The notes beneath the pieces were generated by a model. The model did not search any database. It was not told where the DNA came from and saw nothing but the letters and a program-made list of their open reading frames with translations. Positions 32,287-46,152 of a stretch of DNA of 64,000 nucleotides are shown one piece after another. The translations under genes and the position numbers were made by a program. The stretch is from Muriicola jejuensis (lineage in GTDB: Bacteria; Bacteroidota; Bacteroidia; Flavobacteriales; Flavobacteriaceae), in contig NZ_JAABOP010000001.1 of NCBI RefSeq assembly GCF_010671595.1, positions 1,488,001 through 1,552,000 on the forward strand, read 5' to 3'. Position 1 is the first letter of the stretch. The number at the start of each line of letters is the position of its first letter.

Positions 32287-35200
32287 ATGAAAAAAGTCTA
32301 CTTTTTTTTCGCGGCCCTTTTTGTGTCTGCGATGGCATTTTCGCAGGGTATTACGACTGCGAATATGCAGGGATCGGTTACCGATGAGCAGGGGGAACCC
32401 TTGTTCGGGGCGAACGTGGTAGCTGTTCACACCCCATCAGGGACCACCTATGGGGCAATTGTCAACGAAGAGGGGCGTTTCTACCTGCCTAGTATCAGGG
32501 TAGGGGGTCCTTACACAGTCAATGTTACCTATGTAGGGTATCAAGACCAGCTTTTTGACGGGATCAACCTGGGTCTTGGACAAAGCTACAATCTGAAGGT
32601 CGTCATGATCGAGGGGGTCCAGTTGGCAGAGGTGGTGGTCACATCCATCAGTGGTGGGATCATTGACCCAGACAGGACCGGTCCTGCGGTGAACCTCAGA
32701 AGGGAGACCATAGATGCGTTGCCCACCATCAACAGGAGTATCAACGACTTTACCAGACTCACTCCCCAATCAAGCGGAACCTCGTTTGCAGGAACTTCGA
32801 GCAGGTTTAACAACTATACCATTGACGGTAACATTTACAACAACAACTTTGGTTTGGGAAGTGGCCAATTTGCGGGTTCTAACCCTATTTCCCTTGATGC
32901 CATCGAGGAGGTACAGGTAAACCTGGCCCCATACGATGTAAGGCTCGCCGGCTTTACAGGGGCTGCTGTAAATGCCATCACCAAATCCGGGACCAATGAC
33001 TTTAAAGGATCTGCCTATTATTTCTTCAGAAATGACCAAATGGTGGGGAATAAACTAAGGGACATTGAATTGAACCGTGGGAACTCTCAGAACGATATCA
33101 AGGGGATCTCCCTTGGAGGTCCGATCATCAAGGACAAACTATTCTTTTTCGTGAGCTATGAGGAGGAGGAAGAAGCCGTACCCGGTTTTACACGGATTGC
33201 ATCACGTCCCGGCCTTGCCCCCGACGGTCTTACCGTATCGAGGGTGCCGGCTTCCGAACTGGACTTCATCCGAGAGAGCATGCGTTCCCTCTATGGCTAT
33301 GAGACCGGCCCTTACGAGAATTATCCTTTTGCGTCTACGCAAACCAGATTCAACGCCAGACTGGATTACAACCTGAATCAGAATAACAAATTCTCATTGC
33401 GTTACAATGCCTATGAGGCTGCCAATGATGTTACCATCAATGGCAATTCCAACAGGTATCTTGCAACCCGATATAGGAATACGAGAAGGGATGCCATAGA
33501 GGCCATGACCTTTGCCAATGCCAACTATACCAATGACCGTAATGTAGAGTCCTGGGTAGGTGAATGGATTGCCCGGGTAAAGGACAACATGTCTAACAAG
33601 CTCACCGTAGGCTATACTTCCATTACGGATCCCAAAAGAGGGATCCCCGGAGGCCAGCAGTTCCCATTCATAGAGGTGCTGGAGCCCGATGCAGGTGGAA
33701 ACCTGCTGTATTACACGGCGCTGGGTAACGAGCTTTTTACAGTTGGTAACCTCTTGGAGAACAATGTATTCAATATTACAGACAACTTCTCTATCTTCAA
33801 AGGAAGGCACACTTATACCATTGGGGCCAACTTTGAGTTCATGACCTTTAAAAACGCATTTAACCCTGTGTTCAATGGCTTTTACAGGTTTACCAGCTAC
33901 GACAGTTTTGTAGAAACTGTGATCAACCAGACCCCTGGTGCCTACCCCGATGCTTTCGCTAAGGGATACGCTCTTGACGGCTCTACCACTCCTCCTGTAG
34001 ACGAGACCAAGTTTGGCCAATTCGGGGTATACGTGCAGGATGAATTCCAGGTGAATAATGACCTGAAGGTGACAGGTGGACTTCGAATCGATTTCCCCTT
34101 TTATGCCACCGATATTCCGAGTAACGAACTGCTTGACGCTCTAAATAAGACCTTTACAGATGGCGATGGCAACACCTTTACACCAGATGTAAGCCAGTTC
34201 CCAAAAGTGAGACCTCTGATCTCTCCAAGGGTCGGCGTAAACTGGGATGTCAACGGAGAAGGAAAGACCCAGGTCAGAGGAGGTACGGGAGTATTCTCCG
34301 GCCGTATTCCCTTTGTATGGTTGAGCAACCAGGTCAATGGTTCCGGAGTGGTACGTGGAGGACTTGGATATGAAGGTGCCGATGTTGCTGCCGCATTTGG
34401 TCCTGGTTGGGTTTTCAATCCAGACGTTACCTTCGGAAACCCAGCGAATCCATCACAGACCTTGTCCAATGAGTTGAACCTAACGGACAGGGACTTCAAA
34501 TTGCCTCAGGTCTGGAGGACCAACTTTGGGGTAGATCATGAATTGCCATGGGGAATCACAGGAACAATGGATTTCATCTATTCCAGGGATATCTCTACTC
34601 CTATTGTATTTAACCCTGTGCTCAGGGATCCCGACGGAACTCTGGCGGGTCCTGACCAACGTCCATATTGGGATGGCGGATACTCCAACGATTCAGATTT
34701 CAGGAACGTGTTTTATCTCACCAACGCAGACAGGAAAGCGGATTATATCTCCCTGACCGGTCAGTTACAAAAGCAATGGGACAACGGGTTCTATACCATG
34801 ATCGCCTATACCCTTTCAAGGGCAAGGGACCTGGATGCCTCAGGAGGATCTCAGGCAGGATCCTTGTGGACTGCAGTGGTTCAGGAGAACAGGAACGATC
34901 CGGAGCTCAGTTTTGCATCCTACGACCAGCCTAACCGTTTTATCGCCAACGTAGCTTACAAAACGGAAAACAGCACGATCTCTCTCTTCTGGGAGGGTGG
35001 TGAGAACGGTCGCTTCAGCTATACCTATTCAGGTGATTTCGGGGACAACTCCAACCGGTTGATCTATATCCCCAATGACGCATCTGAACTGAATTTTGAG
35101 GAGTTCACCGTGGGAGGTAATACCATCACCGCCCAGCAGCAGGTTGACCTGTTCAACAATTACATTGACAGGGATGAATACCTGAGTGCCAACAGAGGTA

Positions 35201-35541
35201 CCGTTGCGCAGAGGAATGGCGCGAAGAACCCATGGTTGAATCGATACGATCTCAGGATCACACAGGATATCAAGCTTACCGACGATGATAAGAATAAGAT
35301 CCAATTGTCTCTTGACTTCCTGAACATCGGAAATATGCTTAATTCAGAGTGGGGCGTTCCCCAGTTTGCATTCCAGCGTTCCCCTCTCAGCTACAGGGGA
35401 AGGAATGCATCTGACGAGCCAATTTACCGTTTGAACACTATCCCTGGTACAACTGATTTCCCAACCTCAACTTTCAGGCCATCTACCAGTATAGGAGATA
35501 CCTGGAGATTACAGGTAGGGGTACGTTACCTTTTCAATTAA
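32287..35541 (+). CDS. Oar-like TonB-dependent outer-membrane receptor
   Basis: 1084 residues. A signal peptide ends at AFSQG. Residues about 25-110 are a carboxypeptidase-regulatory-like domain (GSVTDEQGEPLFGANVVAV). The plug has PQSSGTSFAGTSSRFNNY, the DGNIYNNNFGLG loop and AVNAITKSGTNDFKGSAYYFFRN, all characteristic of Oar-like receptors first named in Myxococcus. A long barrel ends LQVGVRYLFN. The ligand is unknown; relatives are linked to adhesion, development and possibly protein or peptide uptake. It has its own promoter and a perfect terminator, so it is monocistronic, and it looks highly expressed. Confidence 0.9.
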   Translation: MKKVYFFFAALFVSAMAFSQGITTANMQGSVTDEQGEPLFGANVVAVHTPSGTTYGAIVNEEGRFYLPSIRVGGPYTVNVTYVGYQDQLFDGINLGLGQSYNLKVVMIEGVQLAEVVVTSISGGIIDPDRTGPAVNLRRETIDALPTINRSINDFTRLTPQSSGTSFAGTSSRFNNYTIDGNIYNNNFGLGSGQFAGSNPISLDAIEEVQVNLAPYDVRLAGFTGAAVNAITKSGTNDFKGSAYYFFRNDQMVGNKLRDIELNRGNSQNDIKGISLGGPIIKDKLFFFVSYEEEEEAVPGFTRIASRPGLAPDGLTVSRVPASELDFIRESMRSLYGYETGPYENYPFASTQTRFNARLDYNLNQNNKFSLRYNAYEAANDVTINGNSNRYLATRYRNTRRDAIEAMTFANANYTNDRNVESWVGEWIARVKDNMSNKLTVGYTSITDPKRGIPGGQQFPFIEVLEPDAGGNLLYYTALGNELFTVGNLLENNVFNITDNFSIFKGRHTYTIGANFEFMTFKNAFNPVFNGFYRFTSYDSFVETVINQTPGAYPDAFAKGYALDGSTTPPVDETKFGQFGVYVQDEFQVNNDLKVTGGLRIDFPFYATDIPSNELLDALNKTFTDGDGNTFTPDVSQFPKVRPLISPRVGVNWDVNGEGKTQVRGGTGVFSGRIPFVWLSNQVNGSGVVRGGLGYEGADVAAAFGPGWVFNPDVTFGNPANPSQTLSNELNLTDRDFKLPQVWRTNFGVDHELPWGITGTMDFIYSRDISTPIVFNPVLRDPDGTLAGPDQRPYWDGGYSNDSDFRNVFYLTNADRKADYISLTGQLQKQWDNGFYTMIAYTLSRARDLDASGGSQAGSLWTAVVQENRNDPELSFASYDQPNRFIANVAYKTENSTISLFWEGGENGRFSYTYSGDFGDNSNRLIYIPNDASELNFEEFTVGGNTITAQQQVDLFNNYIDRDEYLSANRGTVAQRNGAKNPWLNRYDLRITQDIKLTDDDKNKIQLSLDFLNIGNMLNSEWGVPQFAFQRSPLSYRGRNASDEPIYRLNTIPGTTDFPTSTFRPSTSIGDTWRLQVGVRYLFN

Positions 35542-36077: not shown

Positions 36078-36671
36078 ATGAAAACTATACAGATACTTAT
36101 AGCCCTGATCCTTACGGCAGGGGTATCAGCCCAGGAAAAAGAACTTTTCAATGGGAAAAACCTCGATGGCTGGACCGTCTACGGCACCGAGAAATGGTAC
36201 GTGGAAGACGGCCTCCTGGTCTCCGAAAGCGGACCCGATGCCCAGTATGGGTACCTGGCCACCAATGACCACTACAAGGATTTCGAGCTCAGCCTGGAAT
36301 TCCTTCAGGAAGCCGATGGAAACAGCGGGGTCTTTGTACGCTCTACCATAGATGGGACGAAGGTCAGCGGCTGGCAGGTGGAAGTGGCGCCCAAAGGGAA
36401 ACACACCGGAGGGGTCTATGAATCCTATGGCCGCGGCTGGCTGATCAAACCCGATGCAGAACTCGAAGGTGTCCTGAGGCAAGGTCAATGGAATACCCTG
36501 AAGATACGCATGATGGGAGACCAGCTTACCTCCTGGCTGAACGGGGTGGAAATGGTCCGAATCTCCGATGAGGCTATCGGAAGAGGAGAAGGCTCCATCG
36601 CCCTGCAGATCCACGACGGAGGCGGGATCAGGGTGAAGTGGAGGAATATCCGGTTAATCGTTCCTGAATAA
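36078..36671 (+). CDS. Secreted DUF1080 (3-keto-disaccharide hydrolase-like) protein
   Basis: 197 residues. A signal peptide ends at GVSAQ. The mature part matches DUF1080 (PF06439), a concanavalin-like jelly roll: ELFNGKNLDGWTVYG, WYVEDGLLVSESG, NSGVFVRSTIDG, GWQVEVAPKG and RVKWRNIRL at the end. Some members hydrolyse 3-keto-glycosides; many are uncharacterised carbohydrate-related secreted proteins. Likely periplasmic. Its 3' end overlaps the convergent nuclease gene by 18 nt. Confidence 0.87.
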   Translation: MKTIQILIALILTAGVSAQEKELFNGKNLDGWTVYGTEKWYVEDGLLVSESGPDAQYGYLATNDHYKDFELSLEFLQEADGNSGVFVRSTIDGTKVSGWQVEVAPKGKHTGGVYESYGRGWLIKPDAELEGVLRQGQWNTLKIRMMGDQLTSWLNGVEMVRISDEAIGRGEGSIALQIHDGGGIRVKWRNIRLIVPE

Positions 36672-37718
36672 GGCGTTTACTTCTTTTAAAAAATAGGCGT
36701 ACACGGGGAAGTGATCGCTGTATCCTCCCGTATACCTGCCGGAGACAAAGGTTCTGAAAGGATATCCTTTGTATAAACCCCTTTTCTGAACCAGATTAGG
36801 AGGGGCGTGAATGCCCGCTTTCCAGAATCTCAGCGGCTTCTCCCCAGTGGCCAGGTTCCCACTCATATAGACCTGATCAAAAAGGCTCCAGGAATCCCTG
36901 TAGGCGAGACTGCCCACACCTTCCCTGAACAAAGCAACCATCGGACTGAACAATTCGTTAAGGCCCGTATTGACCACATCCTTTTTGACCTTCATTACCT
37001 TCCTGAAGGAGTAATCCGTGGGATTGTCATTAAAATCCCCCATCGCAATGATCATAGGTTCAGGAGTGATCTTCCGGATGGAGTCGATGATCCTCAGGTT
37101 CAGTTCTGCAGCGGCGATCCTGAAAGGTCGACTCCGCTGTTCCCCGCCCCTGCGTGAAGGCCAGTGATTCACAAGCAGGTAAATGGGCAGGCCATCCATA
37201 TAACCGTGCACTACCAGCTGTTCCCGGGTATACTCCCAGTAGCGTTCCTCATTTCGTATAAGCAAGGTATGCCACTTCATGCTCACGGGTGAAAAAGATC
37301 CCTTCCTGTACAACAGAGCGACATCGATCCCCCTTTCGTCCGGTCCGTCCCTGTGGATGATCCCGTACTCAAAAGGGGTGAGTATCTCGTGATTCGCCAG
37401 ATCCGATAAAACACGGTAATTTTCGGCCTCACATACTCCCAGGATGTCCGGGGGGTGATTTCCGGCCTCTGCCCCTATGCTGAGGATAGCCTCAGCCAAT
37501 CGCTCTATCTTCAACTCGTACCTTTTTCTGTCCCACTGATAGGCACCATTGGGGGTATAGTCATCATCCAGCACCTCGGGATCGTTAATGGTGTCGAACA
37601 GGTTTTCGAGGTTGTAAAAGGCTATGGTCCGCAACAGATAGGTCCTTTCCTGTCCACGACACATCGCGCCGGTATACAGGACCAGGCCGAGGCTCAGGAA
37701 CAGCAGCTTCTGATTCAT
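36654..37718 (-). CDS. Secreted endonuclease/exonuclease/phosphatase (EEP) family protein
   Basis: 354 residues from the ATG at 37718, starting with a signal peptide (about residues 1-22). All EEP catalytic motifs are intact: Asn36 in FYNLENLFD, Glu97 in ILGVCEAEN, His185 in VNHWPSRRGG, Asp228/Asn230 in MGDFNDNP and the late SDHFPVYAY. The NHWPSRRGG form is typical of secreted DNases of the ExeM/NucH type rather than of XthA. Likely a Mg2+-dependent nuclease or phosphodiesterase in the periplasm or at the cell surface. It is divergent from the TonB receptor/DUF5689 pair, with 110 nt between starts. The frame is open to 37817, but the signal peptide decides for 37718. Confidence 0.88.
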   Translation of the reverse strand: MNQKLLFLSLGLVLYTGAMCRGQERTYLLRTIAFYNLENLFDTINDPEVLDDDYTPNGAYQWDRKRYELKIERLAEAILSIGAEAGNHPPDILGVCEAENYRVLSDLANHEILTPFEYGIIHRDGPDERGIDVALLYRKGSFSPVSMKWHTLLIRNEERYWEYTREQLVVHGYMDGLPIYLLVNHWPSRRGGEQRSRPFRIAAAELNLRIIDSIRKITPEPMIIAMGDFNDNPTDYSFRKVMKVKKDVVNTGLNELFSPMVALFREGVGSLAYRDSWSLFDQVYMSGNLATGEKPLRFWKAGIHAPPNLVQKRGLYKGYPFRTFVSGRYTGGYSDHFPVYAYFLKEVNALFRND

Positions 37719-37828
37719 TCTTTGTGTTATATACTGAGTCTGCAAGGTATCCTTCCAAGGTGCAAGGGGATTGCAGCATGCGCTCTTATTTTGGCTTCGT
37801 TCATAGGGGAATTTCAAAAGCTGGAGAT

Positions 37829-40606
37829 ATGAAGGGGATCGGTGGAAGCTGCGGTATAGTACATGTTTTAAATCGAAATTATCTATTGCTAATGATGTGC
37901 ATGATGGCAGTGCTGGGGAATGCCCAGGAGATTGTGATAACAGGTCAGGTTCTGGAATACCGGGATCGAAAAGGACTGCAGGGGGTCTTAGTCAGTCTGG
38001 AAGGAGATGATGGCCAGGTGATGACTGACCGTTTGGGGAACTTTCGCCTGACGACAACTGCAAAAGGCCCTCAAACCCTGCTGATTTCCGCCCCGCAATA
38101 CCAAACCATGACCTTTCCCCTAATGATCGGAAAGGAACCTGTCGCGCTGGGACCGGTTTTTATGAAACGCGACCTCGAAATAGAAAAGACCGACAACCTT
38201 ATAACCCTTACGGAATTTGACCTTATCGATGAAGCCGGCTCTAGTTCCAATTCCGGATTTTTACAGGCAACCAGGGACGTCTTTCTCAACCGTGCAGCTT
38301 TTGATTTCGGACAGGCATTCTTCCGTGTCAGGGGATATGATTCGAGGGAAGGAAAGGTCCTGATCAACGGGGTTCCCATGAATCGGAACTGGGATGACAG
38401 GCCACAGTGGAACAATTGGGGCGGACTCAATGATGCCACCAGGGACCAGGAATTTAGCTTCGGCCTGGAAGCTTCTGATCATGCCTTTGGAGGTCTTTTG
38501 GGTACGACCCTTATAGATACCTCCCCTCTGAAGGCAAGGCCGGGAATCCGTATCTCTGCAGCAGCATCCGACAGGACCTACAGGAACAGGCTGATGACGA
38601 CCTACCATACGGGTCAGGGAAAACGGGGATTTGCGCATTCCCTTTCCCTTTCTCGCCGATGGGCGGAGGAGGGCTATGTGCATGGAACGCCCTATGATGC
38701 CTATTCCATCTTTATCTCTTCCGGCATCGCCCTGAACGAAGAACATTCCATTGCCTTCACGGTCATCAATGCCTATAACAGTCGTGGTCGTTCTGCGGCT
38801 CTGACCGATGAGGTCTCAGAACTGGCAGGGCCGCGCTACAATCCTTACTGGGCGAAGCAGGGAGATACATGGAGGTCTTCCCGAATGCGGACCCTTCAGG
38901 AGCCCTTACTCATGCTGAATTATGAATACGCAAGGAAGGATTTCCGTCTGAGGGTTAATACGGCTTATCAGACAGGAGGGGTGAGTTATACGCGAATCGG
39001 GTATTTTGATGCCCCAAATCCGGACCCTACTTATTACCGCTACCTCCCCAGCTTTTACCGCAACAGTCCGATCGGAGCAAACTATACCGGTGCTAATGAG
39101 GCGAGGGAAGGTTTTCAGTTAAGGTCTCAATGGCCGTGGGCAGACCTCTACGAGGCCAATGCGGCTCCCGCCTTGGAAGGCAGGGCAGCCTACGCTTACT
39201 ACGAGGACAGGAACGAGGAAGACAGTTTTACTACCAATACGGTTATAAACCTGCCCCTGGGTAAGGTAATTAGGGTGGATGCAGGGATGGCCCTTCAGTA
39301 CTCGACAATACAGAGTTTTTCACGGGTCAACGATCTTATGGGTGCGACTTTCCTGCTGGATATGGATACCTTTTCCAATACCCGCAACGACCTTAACGGA
39401 AAGATTGACAAGCAGGAAGGTGAGATCTTTGGGTACCATTACAGGATCGATGCCAGGAGCCTTACAAGTTTTATACAAACCCGTTTCATCCGGAAACAAT
39501 GGGATTTTTATGTCGCTGGAGAATATGCTGAAAAGAGTTTTCGGAGAGACGGGTTTTTTTTGAATGAACGATTTCCAAATCAATCCTTTGGAAAAGGAGA
39601 GAATACGCAGTTCACTTATGGGGGAATAAAGTCAGCCCTTTCCTATGGGATCAGCTCCAGACATTGGATAAAGGCCCACATATACAATGGCAGGAGACCG
39701 CCTCTGTTAAAACATTTGTTCGTGAATCCGAGGGAAAGCAACCAGGTTGTCCCGGGAATTGAGGAAGAAACCGTGTTTAGTGCAGATGTGAACTACCACC
39801 TGCGATTGCCAGGGCTCAAAGGCAGGGCCTCCGCCTATTATTCCAGGTTCCAGCACGGCACTGAGGTCAACTTTTTTTACGTGGATTCAGGATTCGGATC
39901 CGACTTTGTACAGGAGGTGGTTACCGGTCTGGACAGGTTGCACAAGGGAGTGGAAATCGGATTGGAATACCAGGTCTCACCCACCACCAGGACCAGCCTG
40001 GTAGCCTCCGTGGGAAGCTTTACCTATGCAAGCGATCCTGATATATCCATTAATTTTGATACATCAGATGCCGAGGGGGAGATGCGGCAAACGAATGGAA
40101 GCATTGATCTGGGTACCGCCTTGATCAAAGGATACAAATTGCCGCAGGGACCACAGACAGCCCTATCGATCGGGATTGAATACAGGGACCCGGACTACTG
40201 GTGGATAGGTGCAACGGCCAACTACCTTGCAGACAATCACATTGACATCGCCTTTATTAAAAGAACCCCCAGTTTTAAGATTGATCCGCTGACCGGACGG
40301 CAGTTTGAAAGTATTGAGGAGGGCGACCTTCGAACTATGCTGAACCAGGATCCCATCCCTCCCGTTTACCTCCTCAATCTTACAGGTGGCAAGTCCTGGT
40401 TGCACAAAGGAAAATACATAAGTGCGTTCCTGAGTGTGAACAACCTCTTTGATGTGGTGTATAAATCCGGAGGATATGAACAAAGCCGCAACGGGAATTA
40501 CGGTCAGATGTACAGGGACCACCTCAGCGGGTCGCCCTCTTTTGGTCCTAAATACTGGTATGGGTTTGGGCGGACCTTCTTCCTGAACTTAGCAATAAGT
40601 TTTTAG
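37829..40606 (+). CDS. TonB-dependent receptor of the nuclease/DUF5689 locus
   Basis: About 925 residues from the ATG at 37829 (frame open from a GTG at 37724). A long signal sequence ends at VLGNAQ. A carboxypeptidase-regulatory-like domain follows (QVLEYRDRKGLQGVLVSLEG). The plug includes RVRGYDSREGKVLINGVPMN and the barrel ends FFLNLAISF. Tyr/Arg-rich barrel strands suggest an anionic or aromatic ligand, but that is speculation. The DUF5689 lipoprotein gene starts one base after its stop, so the two form an operon, divergent from the secreted EEP nuclease. Confidence 0.87.
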   Translation: MKGIGGSCGIVHVLNRNYLLLMMCMMAVLGNAQEIVITGQVLEYRDRKGLQGVLVSLEGDDGQVMTDRLGNFRLTTTAKGPQTLLISAPQYQTMTFPLMIGKEPVALGPVFMKRDLEIEKTDNLITLTEFDLIDEAGSSSNSGFLQATRDVFLNRAAFDFGQAFFRVRGYDSREGKVLINGVPMNRNWDDRPQWNNWGGLNDATRDQEFSFGLEASDHAFGGLLGTTLIDTSPLKARPGIRISAAASDRTYRNRLMTTYHTGQGKRGFAHSLSLSRRWAEEGYVHGTPYDAYSIFISSGIALNEEHSIAFTVINAYNSRGRSAALTDEVSELAGPRYNPYWAKQGDTWRSSRMRTLQEPLLMLNYEYARKDFRLRVNTAYQTGGVSYTRIGYFDAPNPDPTYYRYLPSFYRNSPIGANYTGANEAREGFQLRSQWPWADLYEANAAPALEGRAAYAYYEDRNEEDSFTTNTVINLPLGKVIRVDAGMALQYSTIQSFSRVNDLMGATFLLDMDTFSNTRNDLNGKIDKQEGEIFGYHYRIDARSLTSFIQTRFIRKQWDFYVAGEYAEKSFRRDGFFLNERFPNQSFGKGENTQFTYGGIKSALSYGISSRHWIKAHIYNGRRPPLLKHLFVNPRESNQVVPGIEEETVFSADVNYHLRLPGLKGRASAYYSRFQHGTEVNFFYVDSGFGSDFVQEVVTGLDRLHKGVEIGLEYQVSPTTRTSLVASVGSFTYASDPDISINFDTSDAEGEMRQTNGSIDLGTALIKGYKLPQGPQTALSIGIEYRDPDYWWIGATANYLADNHIDIAFIKRTPSFKIDPLTGRQFESIEEGDLRTMLNQDPIPPVYLLNLTGGKSWLHKGKYISAFLSVNNLFDVVYKSGGYEQSRNGNYGQMYRDHLSGSPSFGPKYWYGFGRTFFLNLAISF

Positions 40607-40607
40607 C

Positions 40608-41984
40608 ATGGAAATAATAAATAAGAAAGCCCGTTGGATCCCTGTACTTGCTCCTTTGCTGCTTCTGGTTCAGGCATGCCTCATGCAGGAGGACTGGGAA
40701 GTTCCCTCGAGTGAATGCGTATCGGAACTATCCCCGAACATTACCCTGAGGGAGGTGCTGGACTCTTATCAGGGGAGTACTCAGGAGATCCTGGATGATT
40801 GGGTGATGGAGGCCTATGTGATCTCTTCAGATGAGACCGGTAATTTCTTCAATACCCTGCATCTGCAGGATAGAATCGCTGACCCTGAGGGAGGTATACA
40901 GGTCGAATTCGAATTTCGGGACTCTCATCTGTTCTTTCCTCCGGGTCAAAAGGTATTCCTGAAACTGAAAGGGCTTTTTCTCGGCAAGAGCAAGGGGATC
41001 TTCAAACTTGGGAGCTCCTATACATCTTTTGGCAACCTGCAGGTCGGCAGGATCCCTAAACACGCGGTTGGCAACCATGTCCTGAAAGCTTGCGAAGCTC
41101 CTATGGCACTCAGGCCGAAAACAGTCGCCATACCCGATCTGACGTCCCAACCGGCGAACACCCTGGTCCGGCTGGAGAATTTGGAATTCGCTCAGGAATT
41201 ACTAGACTCCACCTATGCCCAGAGTGAAGTACCCACACTGCGCAGGTTACTGGATTGTGAAGATCGGGAGATATCTCTGATGACCAGCGGATATTCTGAT
41301 TTCTACGAGAAAACTTTACCTGCCGGGATGGGACCCATCACGGCTGTCTACTATCCCGAAGGGGGCAAAGCCCTCCTGGTGGTCAGATCAGAGGAAGACC
41401 TGGATCTGACAGCAGAAAGATGTGAGGAATTGATCACAGAATTCACATCCGATTCCCTTATCTTTTCAGAACTCGCGGACCCCGATAACAATAGTGCTGC
41501 CAGGTATGTCGAATTGTTCTATGCAGGAGATCAACCGCTTTCTCTTAATGGATGGCATATAGACCGGTACACGAATGACAATACGGAAAGAGGATCTTCC
41601 ATAGACCTGTCTGATATCACGGTCAACTCGGGTCAATTTCTCCTCATTGCATCCAACGCCGCGGTTTTTCAGGAGATCTATGGTACAGCTCCGGATATCG
41701 AAGGGGGGTTGAACAGTCCTGCGGATTCCAACGGGGACGACAACCTCGTTTTGGTGGATCCCTTCGGAACCATCATCGATATCTTTGGAATCATAGGGGA
41801 AGATGGTTCCGGAACAGCACATGAATTTGAGGACGGCAGGGCATTCCGTAAAGAAGACATTAACAAAGCTAATCCTGTTTTCGACCCCTCGGAATGGGAA
41901 GTGTTCAATGATACAGGTGCATCCGGGACCGTGAACCAGCCCCAAAGGGCCCCTCAGGATTTTACTCCGGGTTCGAGGGGATGA
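40608..41984 (+). CDS. DUF5689 (OB-fold-like) + lamin-tail-domain lipoprotein
   Basis: 458 residues. A lipoprotein signal has its lipobox at LLVQAC24. Residues about 40-260 match DUF5689, an OB-fold-like domain (AYVISSDETGNFFNTLHLQD, FFPPGQKVFLKLKGLFLG). Residues about 285-420 are a lamin-tail domain (IFSELADPDNNSAARYVELF, LNGWHIDRYTND, GQFLLIASNAAVF, NLVLVDPFGTIIDIFG). Lamin-tail plus OB-fold modules are found fused to EEP nucleases in ExeM-like enzymes; here they are on a lipid-anchored protein beside a separate EEP gene. It may bind nucleic acid at the cell surface and feed the receptor. Starts one base after the receptor gene. Confidence 0.85.
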   Translation: MEIINKKARWIPVLAPLLLLVQACLMQEDWEVPSSECVSELSPNITLREVLDSYQGSTQEILDDWVMEAYVISSDETGNFFNTLHLQDRIADPEGGIQVEFEFRDSHLFFPPGQKVFLKLKGLFLGKSKGIFKLGSSYTSFGNLQVGRIPKHAVGNHVLKACEAPMALRPKTVAIPDLTSQPANTLVRLENLEFAQELLDSTYAQSEVPTLRRLLDCEDREISLMTSGYSDFYEKTLPAGMGPITAVYYPEGGKALLVVRSEEDLDLTAERCEELITEFTSDSLIFSELADPDNNSAARYVELFYAGDQPLSLNGWHIDRYTNDNTERGSSIDLSDITVNSGQFLLIASNAAVFQEIYGTAPDIEGGLNSPADSNGDDNLVLVDPFGTIIDIFGIIGEDGSGTAHEFEDGRAFRKEDINKANPVFDPSEWEVFNDTGASGTVNQPQRAPQDFTPGSRG

Positions 41985-45435: not shown

Positions 45436-46152
45436 TCAGGGGACCATCGCTATGGCGGCAATGTAAACCTCCATATCCTGTGCTTGGGAGAAAGCCTGGA
45501 CACAGGCTTCCAGCGTGGCTCCCGTGGTGATCACATCATCCATGAGGAGTACTTTTTTTCCACTGAGTTCTGTGACGTCCGTAACCCGGAACAAGGGGCG
45601 TTGGTGTTGCCATCTGAACAGCCTCGACTTCCTGGTTTGGGTCTGAGTATGGGTGCTCTTCTCCAGCAGATCTTCCCTATGCAAAGTACATAGCATCCGG
45701 GCCACTTCCATACTGAATCCGGAGACCTGGTTATAGCCTCTTTTTTTGAGCTTTTTGGGATGGAGGGGAACCGGGATGACCAAATCAGGGACCGGAAGTG
45801 CCTTATCCTCCGAGAGAATCTTCCCATACCACTTCCCCAGGAAGGGGCCTATCTGCCTTTGATTCCTGTATTTGAGGTGGTGTATGAGGTTGCGTACAAT
45901 GCCTTTTTCCTGAAAATAGAGGAAACAGGAGGCTTTTTTGATGGGGATTCGTCCGTAAAACACCCGGTCTAAACGATTTTCTGCCGAAAAATTGAACTCG
46001 GTAAGCGGCAATTGGTCTCGACAAGGAACACACAAAGTTTGCTCTCCCCGATATAATCGTGCATTACATCCAAAACAGACTTGAGGGAACAGAACCGTGT
46101 TCAGATCATTTAGTATATTTGGTAGCTTAGTAATATTCAAATCTTTACGCAT
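45436..46152 (-). CDS. comF: ComF-family phosphoribosyltransferase-like protein
   Basis: 238 residues. An N-terminal zinc ribbon has Cys26-x2-Cys29 (CFGC) and Cys41-x2-Cys44 (CVPC). The PRTase-like domain has VIPVPLHPKKLKKRGYNQ and the PRPP-loop type motif LLMDDVITTGAT with Asp205/Asp206. ComF proteins assist DNA uptake in naturally competent bacteria and, in non-competent ones, are implicated in DNA metabolism. The start at 46152 gives normal family length. A divergent gene has its promoter element inside this 5' coding region. Confidence 0.92.
   Translation of the reverse strand: MRKDLNITKLPNILNDLNTVLFPQVCFGCNARLYRGEQTLCVPCRDQLPLTEFNFSAENRLDRVFYGRIPIKKASCFLYFQEKGIVRNLIHHLKYRNQRQIGPFLGKWYGKILSEDKALPVPDLVIPVPLHPKKLKKRGYNQVSGFSMEVARMLCTLHREDLLEKSTHTQTQTRKSRLFRWQHQRPLFRVTDVTELSGKKVLLMDDVITTGATLEACVQAFSQAQDMEVYIAAIAMVP
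46114..46121 (+). promoter_or_regulatory. -7 promoter element TATATTTG inside the comF 5' region
   Basis: TAnnTTTG match on the plus strand, 62 nt before the ATG at 46184 of the coiled-coil protein and about 31-38 nt inside the divergent comF reading frame. Confidence 0.45.

Follow-up and report, generated by a model that had tools for sequence, protein, structure and literature searches.

A divergent locus of three genes in Muriicola jejuensis, a member of the Flavobacteriaceae, is in our judgement rather probably the outer-membrane DNA-uptake gate of a pilus-free form of natural transformation, equipped with its own processing nuclease. The locus lies in a stretch of 64,000 nucleotides (contig NZ_JAABOP010000001.1, positions 1,488,001 to 1,552,000; hereafter, the window) and encodes a TonB-dependent-receptor-like outer-membrane protein, a lipoprotein with a DUF5689 domain and a putative nuclease of the endonuclease/exonuclease/phosphatase (EEP) class, whose part in the process we infer. 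By sequence comparison, the receptor and the lipoprotein are the counterparts of RA0C_RS04915 and RA0C_RS04920 of Riemerella anatipestifer ATCC 11845, and published deletions of these orthologues suggest their function; by the same extension, DNA would pass through the receptor and M. jejuensis would be able to transform. The original prediction, made from the letters of the window, had taken the locus for a nucleic-acid utilisation system. Its idea of a conserved unit stands, as very probably does the nucleic-acid cargo, but the nutritional purpose is not supported, since the orthologues are needed for transformation.

A receptor-lipoprotein pair with counterparts in Riemerella

Natural transformation of R. 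anatipestifer, a bacterium of ducks, was dissected in a transposon screen of 3000 mutants (Huang 2021, PMC8459023). According to the available part of that report, markerless deletion of either RA0C_RS04915 or RA0C_RS04920 brought transformation below detection, and both are thus essential. The two genes are adjacent and encode a carboxypeptidase-regulatory outer-membrane protein and a protein with DUF5689 and DUF5017, respectively; the authors' model has the lipoprotein binding DNA, which then passes through the barrel, and leaves the conversion of double-stranded (ds) DNA to single-stranded (ss) DNA to ‘a yet unknown mechanism’. Deletion of tonBA or tonBB also inhibits transformation in this species, with iron given as the reason for the tonBB effect (PMC8383284, accessible passages).

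The matching locus (L061) resides in a genome of 2,164,087 bases in one contig (G165), taken here as probably that of ATCC 11845 because its gene order fits. It comprises ComEC (− strand), a 145-residue gene, a carboxyltransferase and an EEP gene, followed divergently by the receptor and the DUF5689 lipoprotein. Because this spacing fits the series 04895 (ComEC), 04900, 04905, 04910, 04915, 04920, the EEP gene of L061 would be RA0C_RS04910, which the available passages of PMC8459023 mention once, as the upstream gene in an expression control, the EEP gene not being named in them. Genes that by eye resemble Cas2, Cas1 and Cas9 lie directly downstream of the locus (L061 14490-20000), so that a CRISPR system would be its neighbour.

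The window displays the same two families in the same order and on the same strand. The receptor gene (37829-40606, + strand, ATG start) encodes 925 amino acids that align with the L061 receptor over the full length (28% identity over 941 aligned positions, 413 bits). Pfam detects in it an N-terminal carboxypeptidase-regulatory domain (CarbopepD_reg_2, E 2.8e-8) and a sub-threshold Plug match (1.3e-3), and no barrel family at E≤0.01. Among solved structures, the N-terminal domain resembles NOMO2 (3.9e-8) and a SusC homologue (5e-7), and the barrel resembles OprC (2.9e-4); our receptor alignment comprised 54 of 64 thinned receptors. The gene is single copy, being the sole match at E≤1e-20 in the 3.3-Mb window genome, for which all six candidates were scored, and one match was found in G165 at E≤1e-50.

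The lipoprotein gene (40608-41984, + strand) begins one base past the receptor stop, as had been noted from the sequence, and Pfam bears out the proposed combination of DUF5689 (residues 43-264, E 2.5e-58) with a lamin-tail domain (LTD; residues 281-395, E 9.1e-10). Its DUF5689 part is 28% identical to that of the L061 lipoprotein (274 positions, E 1e-24), whereas the C-terminal domain of the latter is of the choice-of-anchor J type. An ‘OB-like’ fold for DUF5689 found no backing: the lipoprotein profile reached just one solved structure, 3m1h, through the C-terminal region (0.0033), and gave no informative match for DUF5689. The lipid cysteine C24 is invariant in 56 aligned lipoproteins and is followed in the window protein by an acidic stretch, presumably akin to the surface export signal of Bacteroidetes lipoproteins. 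Such acidity is common: at least two D/E occur within six residues of the cysteine in 112 of the 129 DUF5689 proteins that have a candidate one (129 of 140 by a loose pattern, which misplaces a few). At many Flavobacterium-type loci, about 20 in all (L067, L073 and L136 among them), an extra protein of ~205 amino acids matching the DUF5689 profile lies between the receptor and the main lipoprotein.

The layout of the pair is thus SusC/SusD-like, with a TonB-type receptor that carries a carboxypeptidase-regulatory domain followed by a surface-type lipoprotein, but the partner is a DUF5689 protein, conserved glycan genes are absent and the proposed cargo is DNA. The suggestion of a Sus-type pair in which a DUF5689-LTD protein replaces SusD therefore holds for the layout and fails for the LTD as a general feature. 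When 56 lipoproteins (of 70 remaining after 91 had been thinned) were scanned, all 56 matched DUF5689 and none matched a SusD family at E≤0.001; the second domain was LTD in 4 and choice-of-anchor J in 29.

Conservation of the three-gene unit

The co-occurrence of receptor, DUF5689 lipoprotein and EEP gene across genomes, a check that accompanied the original prediction, was examined and revealed a three-gene unit conserved in seven families. In a sample of 119 genomes drawn evenly across the order, the receptor (E<1e-50) is present in 30, and an EEP gene adjoins it in 23 of the 29 evaluable ones, including one (G088) whose EEP frame is interrupted by a stop codon. Strong DUF5689 matches (E<1e-20) occur in 29 of the 30 receptor-bearing genomes versus 0 of the 89 others, many of which hold weaker matches (counts made by hand from the result tables).

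Over all distinct receptor loci, the EEP gene is adjacent in 105 of 117 evaluable cases (103 divergent, 2 co-directional), and a DUF5689 protein stands next to the receptor, downstream, in 117 of 119. These 119 loci comprise the window, the neighbourhoods of 20 hand-picked genomes, known exceptions included, the best 80 named loci, which are top scorers mostly from Chryseobacterium and relatives, and 20 further genome loci, minus two (L204, a duplicate of L154, and L205, which contains a receptor paralogue only); two loci at contig ends were also excluded from the EEP count. Genes were called by a simple script that cut the starts of some genes and mis-picked the ComEC frame of L261.

Adjacent EEPs are found in families f1, f3, f5, f10, f18, f19 and f25, and none at the one f2 locus. 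In the window, the predicted spacing of 110 nt between the divergent EEP and receptor genes was confirmed between their ATG codons (37719-37828, read from the sequence); elsewhere the spacer measures ~16-418 nt, with a median of 187 for script-called starts. In family f25 (2 genomes), the EEP gene lies immediately before the receptor gene on the same strand, so the linkage is not just a matter of a shared promoter. Two frames hint at possible decay of the locus, namely the EEP frame of G088 (L020) with its one in-frame stop and a receptor frame with stops in G411 (C19:401312-404102).

Beyond these three genes, the neighbourhood is variable. Clustering of the genes at 21 loci (the window and the 20 hand-picked ones) gave the receptor in 21, DUF5689 in 19, the EEP in 15 and the next commonest family in 7, and over 120 loci no further neighbour family reached more than 42. 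As neighbour genes were clustered and not annotated singly, it is in this sense that no transporter, nucleotidase or phosphate gene is a conserved partner. The receptor itself is near-universal in one family, being present in 95 of 100 genomes of the family of G019, G165 among them, at E≤1e-50. Across the phylum, its profile matched 54 of 296 sampled genomes at E≤1e-40, some just via paralogues; three candidates per genome were scored there, which makes ‘receptor-negative’ a shallow assignment in that sample.

Other genes of the window were recorded alongside. A gene for a 3-keto-disaccharide hydrolase domain protein (36078-36671, + strand, Pfam E 1.4e-38) converges on the end of the EEP gene with an 18-base overlap. 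A second, larger TonB-receptor-like protein of 1084 amino acids, identified by eye, is encoded at 32287-35541, ~2 kb ahead of the locus, and a ComF-like phosphoribosyltransferase gene lies at 45436-46152 (− strand), 3.5 kb downstream. Linkage to ComEC or ComF was dropped as evidence, since in the fetched flanks ComEC occurs only at L061 and ComF only in the window and one close relative (L063). The window genome also encodes ComEC, NamZ/DUF1343, a tandem helix-hairpin-helix (HhH) protein and the ComF-like protein, but DUF1343 and HhH, each present in 90 of the 119 genomes, are too common for their co-occurrence to be informative.

The EEP nuclease and its proposed role in DNA processing

The EEP gene (36654-37718, − strand, ATG start) encodes 354 amino acids with a hydrophobic N-terminus and a complete active site; a longer, TTG-start frame extends to 37817. 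Its product matches PF19580 (Exo_endo_phos_3) over residues 31-343 (E 4.9e-102), with little else beyond the N-terminus, and is 37% identical to the EEP of L061 (246 bits). It is the only PF19580 match in the window genome, which likewise has one DUF5689 match. Against solved structures, the EEP profile reaches just an EEP-domain protein (E 0.0025). The catalytic residues named at the outset (N36, E97, H185, D228, N230 and SDH) are all present, and N36, E38, E97, H185, D228, N230, D231, S334, D335 and H336 show no variation in any of the 105 receptor-adjacent EEPs. The SDHFP motif is kept in part: SDH is found in all 105, P in 103 and F in 98. A hydrophobic N-terminus was seen in 105 of 105 adjacent EEPs versus 21 of 33 non-adjacent ones (33 of the 34 fetched stretches gave a row, that of G087 being missing). 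Thinning left 36 of the 105 adjacent EEPs for the alignment.

A tree of 76 EEPs contained 40 of the 105 adjacent sequences (thinned), six orthologues that had moved, lay on a broken contig or had lost the receptor, and 30 other PF19580 rows. A branch of modest support (78/71; recovered in 78% of bootstrap trees) has all 30 others on the same side; one of these, a neighbouring paralogue from family f25, is placed at the adjacent group's open base. Five genomes (G360, G396, G222, G141 and G239) possess the receptor without an adjacent EEP, yet contain a strong EEP orthologue elsewhere (464-498 bits). Among eight receptor-less genomes, seven had no EEP match at E≤1e-10 and the eighth had a pair of matches (303 and 294 bits). 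Several genomes have, a few kb from the locus, an additional EEP paralogue that does not belong to the adjacent group, as in L066 (6428-7396), L070 (13462-14292) and L199 (11932-12900).

That the EEP protein is secreted outside the cell, as first assumed, was not confirmed: the N-terminus is hydrophobic, but an NCBIfam scan of the window EEP found no family at E≤0.01, a type IX sorting domain included. Since a Sec-exported enzyme without such a domain stays in the periplasm by default, a periplasmic location is predicted to be at least as likely as an extracellular one.

These properties bear on the nutritional alternative, in which the EEP would degrade extracellular nucleic acid, the lipoprotein would capture it and the receptor would import the products for phosphorus or nucleosides. 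The SusCD-like layout agrees with it, as do the intact active site and the export-signal-like N-terminus of the EEP. Likenesses to the extracellular nucleases ExeM and NucH, which share the EEP catalytic module and, in the clade of the window, the LTD, point the same way. In the Bacteroidota loci, however, these modules sit on separate chains and full-length models of the two nucleases are not reached, the window lipoprotein scoring 33.5 bits against a cut-off of 1300 and the L061 EEP, which resembles the ExeM/NucH DNase model weakly, 22.2 against 300. With LTD in 4 of 56 lipoproteins, the supposed splitting of ExeM/NucH into lamin-tail and EEP genes is specific to a clade, and we rejected it as a general rule. 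Set against a nutritional role are (i) the requirement of the orthologous receptor and lipoprotein for transformation, (ii) the finding that removal of phosphate lowered transformation and did not raise it (PMC8383284, accessible passages), (iii) the lack of any other gene family common to more than 42 of 120 loci, (iv) the near-universal, not patchy, presence of the receptor in one family, (v) the missing type IX sorting domain and (vi) the failure to find a DNA-nutrition locus of this type in the literature (PubMed Central, open licences). We thus regard this alternative as unlikely and probably wrong.

Under the transformation reading, a nuclease has an evident place. In other bacteria the Lactamase_B domain of ComEC degrades the non-translocating strand, while Streptococcus pneumoniae uses EndA and Helicobacter pylori an unknown enzyme (PMC12455585, part of the text). 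The ComEC proteins of L061 (602 amino acids) and of the window genome (672 amino acids) contain the competence and DUF4131 domains and lack Lactamase_B even at E≤1. It is missing from all nine scanned Bacteroidota ComECs (from five receptor-bearing and four receptor-less genomes), the control, YcaI of Escherichia coli, giving E 2e-23; similarly, none of the 29 usable ComEC frames (from 30 loci, L261 being unusable) has a metal-binding motif that is present in the E. coli protein. As receptor-less genomes are also without the domain, its absence was rejected as a discriminator; it indicates the need for a nuclease and not a link to this locus. The EEP is most likely a nuclease that processes incoming DNA, its cleavage role being predicted. 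It would resemble EndA in degrading the non-translocating strand where ComEC cannot (PMC12455585) but differs from it in being soluble instead of membrane-bound and in belonging to another family.

EndA has a beta-beta-alpha-metal fold, which is unrelated to the EEP fold. The comparison with uptake by a type IV pilus, ComEA and ComEC is likewise partial. The window genome does have ComEC and a tandem helix-hairpin-helix protein, but its ComEC is devoid of the beta-lactamase-like domain and no PilB/PilT-type ATPase (PF00437, T2SSE) passed the cut-off in either the window genome or G165, compared with 13 of 14 controls.

Alternatives and a proposed route of DNA entry

Several observations weigh against the transformation reading or loosen its parts. 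Coupling of the EEP to the pair is not strict: in G087 and G029 the receptor is present but EEP matches are no more than weaker ones (377 and 269 bits), and G109, which lacks a receptor orthologue and DUF5689, keeps the EEP in a window-like gene order. (What G109 has in a comparable gene order is a receptor paralogue of 912 amino acids, at L205 4706-7444; it is without a receptor or lipoprotein of the transformation type.) PF19580 as a family is the commoner of the two, occurring in 76 of the 119 order genomes against 30 for the receptor, and the missing ComEC domain extends, as stated, to the four receptor-negative genomes scanned. Sub-threshold T2SSE matches exist in the window genome and G165 (E 1.8e-4 to 5.2e-4), and no Riemerella record was among the best 80 named-contig receptor loci. 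Competence was not seen in Flavobacterium johnsoniae under the conditions used (PMC7965970, in the part available); hence, should that species have the locus, possession of it is no guarantee of competence.

Two further points concern the EEP and the lipoprotein individually, and each gives rise to an alternative. The EEP gene is not among the hits listed in the available part of the loss-of-transformation screen (PMC8459023). This would be expected if the pair were the uptake gate and the EEP limited it by destroying extracellular or excess periplasmic DNA. The Dns and Xds nucleases of Vibrio act in this manner. A divergent arrangement would permit opposite regulation of such an enzyme, and its persistence in G109 without the pair fits too. 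A limiting role is harder to reconcile with the f25 loci, where the EEP gene directly precedes the receptor gene in the same orientation, with the linkage of EEP and pair across seven families, and with a ComEC that, lacking a nuclease domain, would leave some nuclease to be required. On balance, we think a limiting role improbable.

The second point is the lipoprotein, which is acidic (pI >8 in 0 of 112, net charge of −41 in the window protein). A simple electrostatic hold on DNA is therefore unlikely, and direct DNA binding by this protein is unsupported by charge. The L061 lipoprotein moreover falls in the NCBIfam M949_1556 family (599 bits, cut-off 475), and in R. anatipestifer the gene of that name is cited for lipopolysaccharide (LPS), antigenicity and pathogenicity (PMC4976936 and PMC12566107, both in part). 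Several other envelope genes were hit in the same screen (PMC8459023, listed hits). Given these hits and the citations of M949_1556, the transformation phenotype could be indirect; if M949_1556 and RA0C_RS04920 are the same gene, which is conjectural, an indirect envelope effect has to be considered. The three proteins would then serve the envelope, in the metabolism of LPS, antigens or phosphoesters, and transformation would be lost only as a secondary consequence. Yet deletions of the pair abolish transformation, whereas envelope hits such as the amidase, the lipoprotein acyltransferase and the phospholipid acyltransferase only lower it (PMC8459023), and the conserved partner of the pair is a DNase-like EEP. 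An envelope role of this kind appears to us quite improbable.

Returning to the reading of the locus as a transformation gate, we propose the following model. The DUF5689 lipoprotein, exposed on the cell surface, would work with the TonB-type receptor as SusD does with SusC. Energy delivered by TonB would open the receptor and admit dsDNA into the periplasm. There, the EEP, exported by the Sec pathway, would process the incoming DNA by nicking it or by degrading one strand, and the remaining single strand would cross via ComEC, which in these bacteria is without the nuclease domain that it usually carries. As a tentative generalization, which we hold with more reserve than the reading of the locus itself, much of the Bacteroidota may transform without a pilus, through a receptor-lipoprotein gate powered by TonB, with a locus-linked EEP as the entry nuclease in place of the ComEC domain.

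Two steps of natural transformation are at issue: the pilus-free crossing of the outer membrane by DNA, and the identity of the nuclease that makes ssDNA when ComEC has no nuclease domain. A search of PubMed Central (open licences) found no link of the EEP to transformation, and here it emerges as a third, tightly linked part of the system. DUF5689, a family of unknown function, gains a likely biological setting, and the locus supplies named candidates for both steps, as a unit that recurs in seven families of Bacteroidota.

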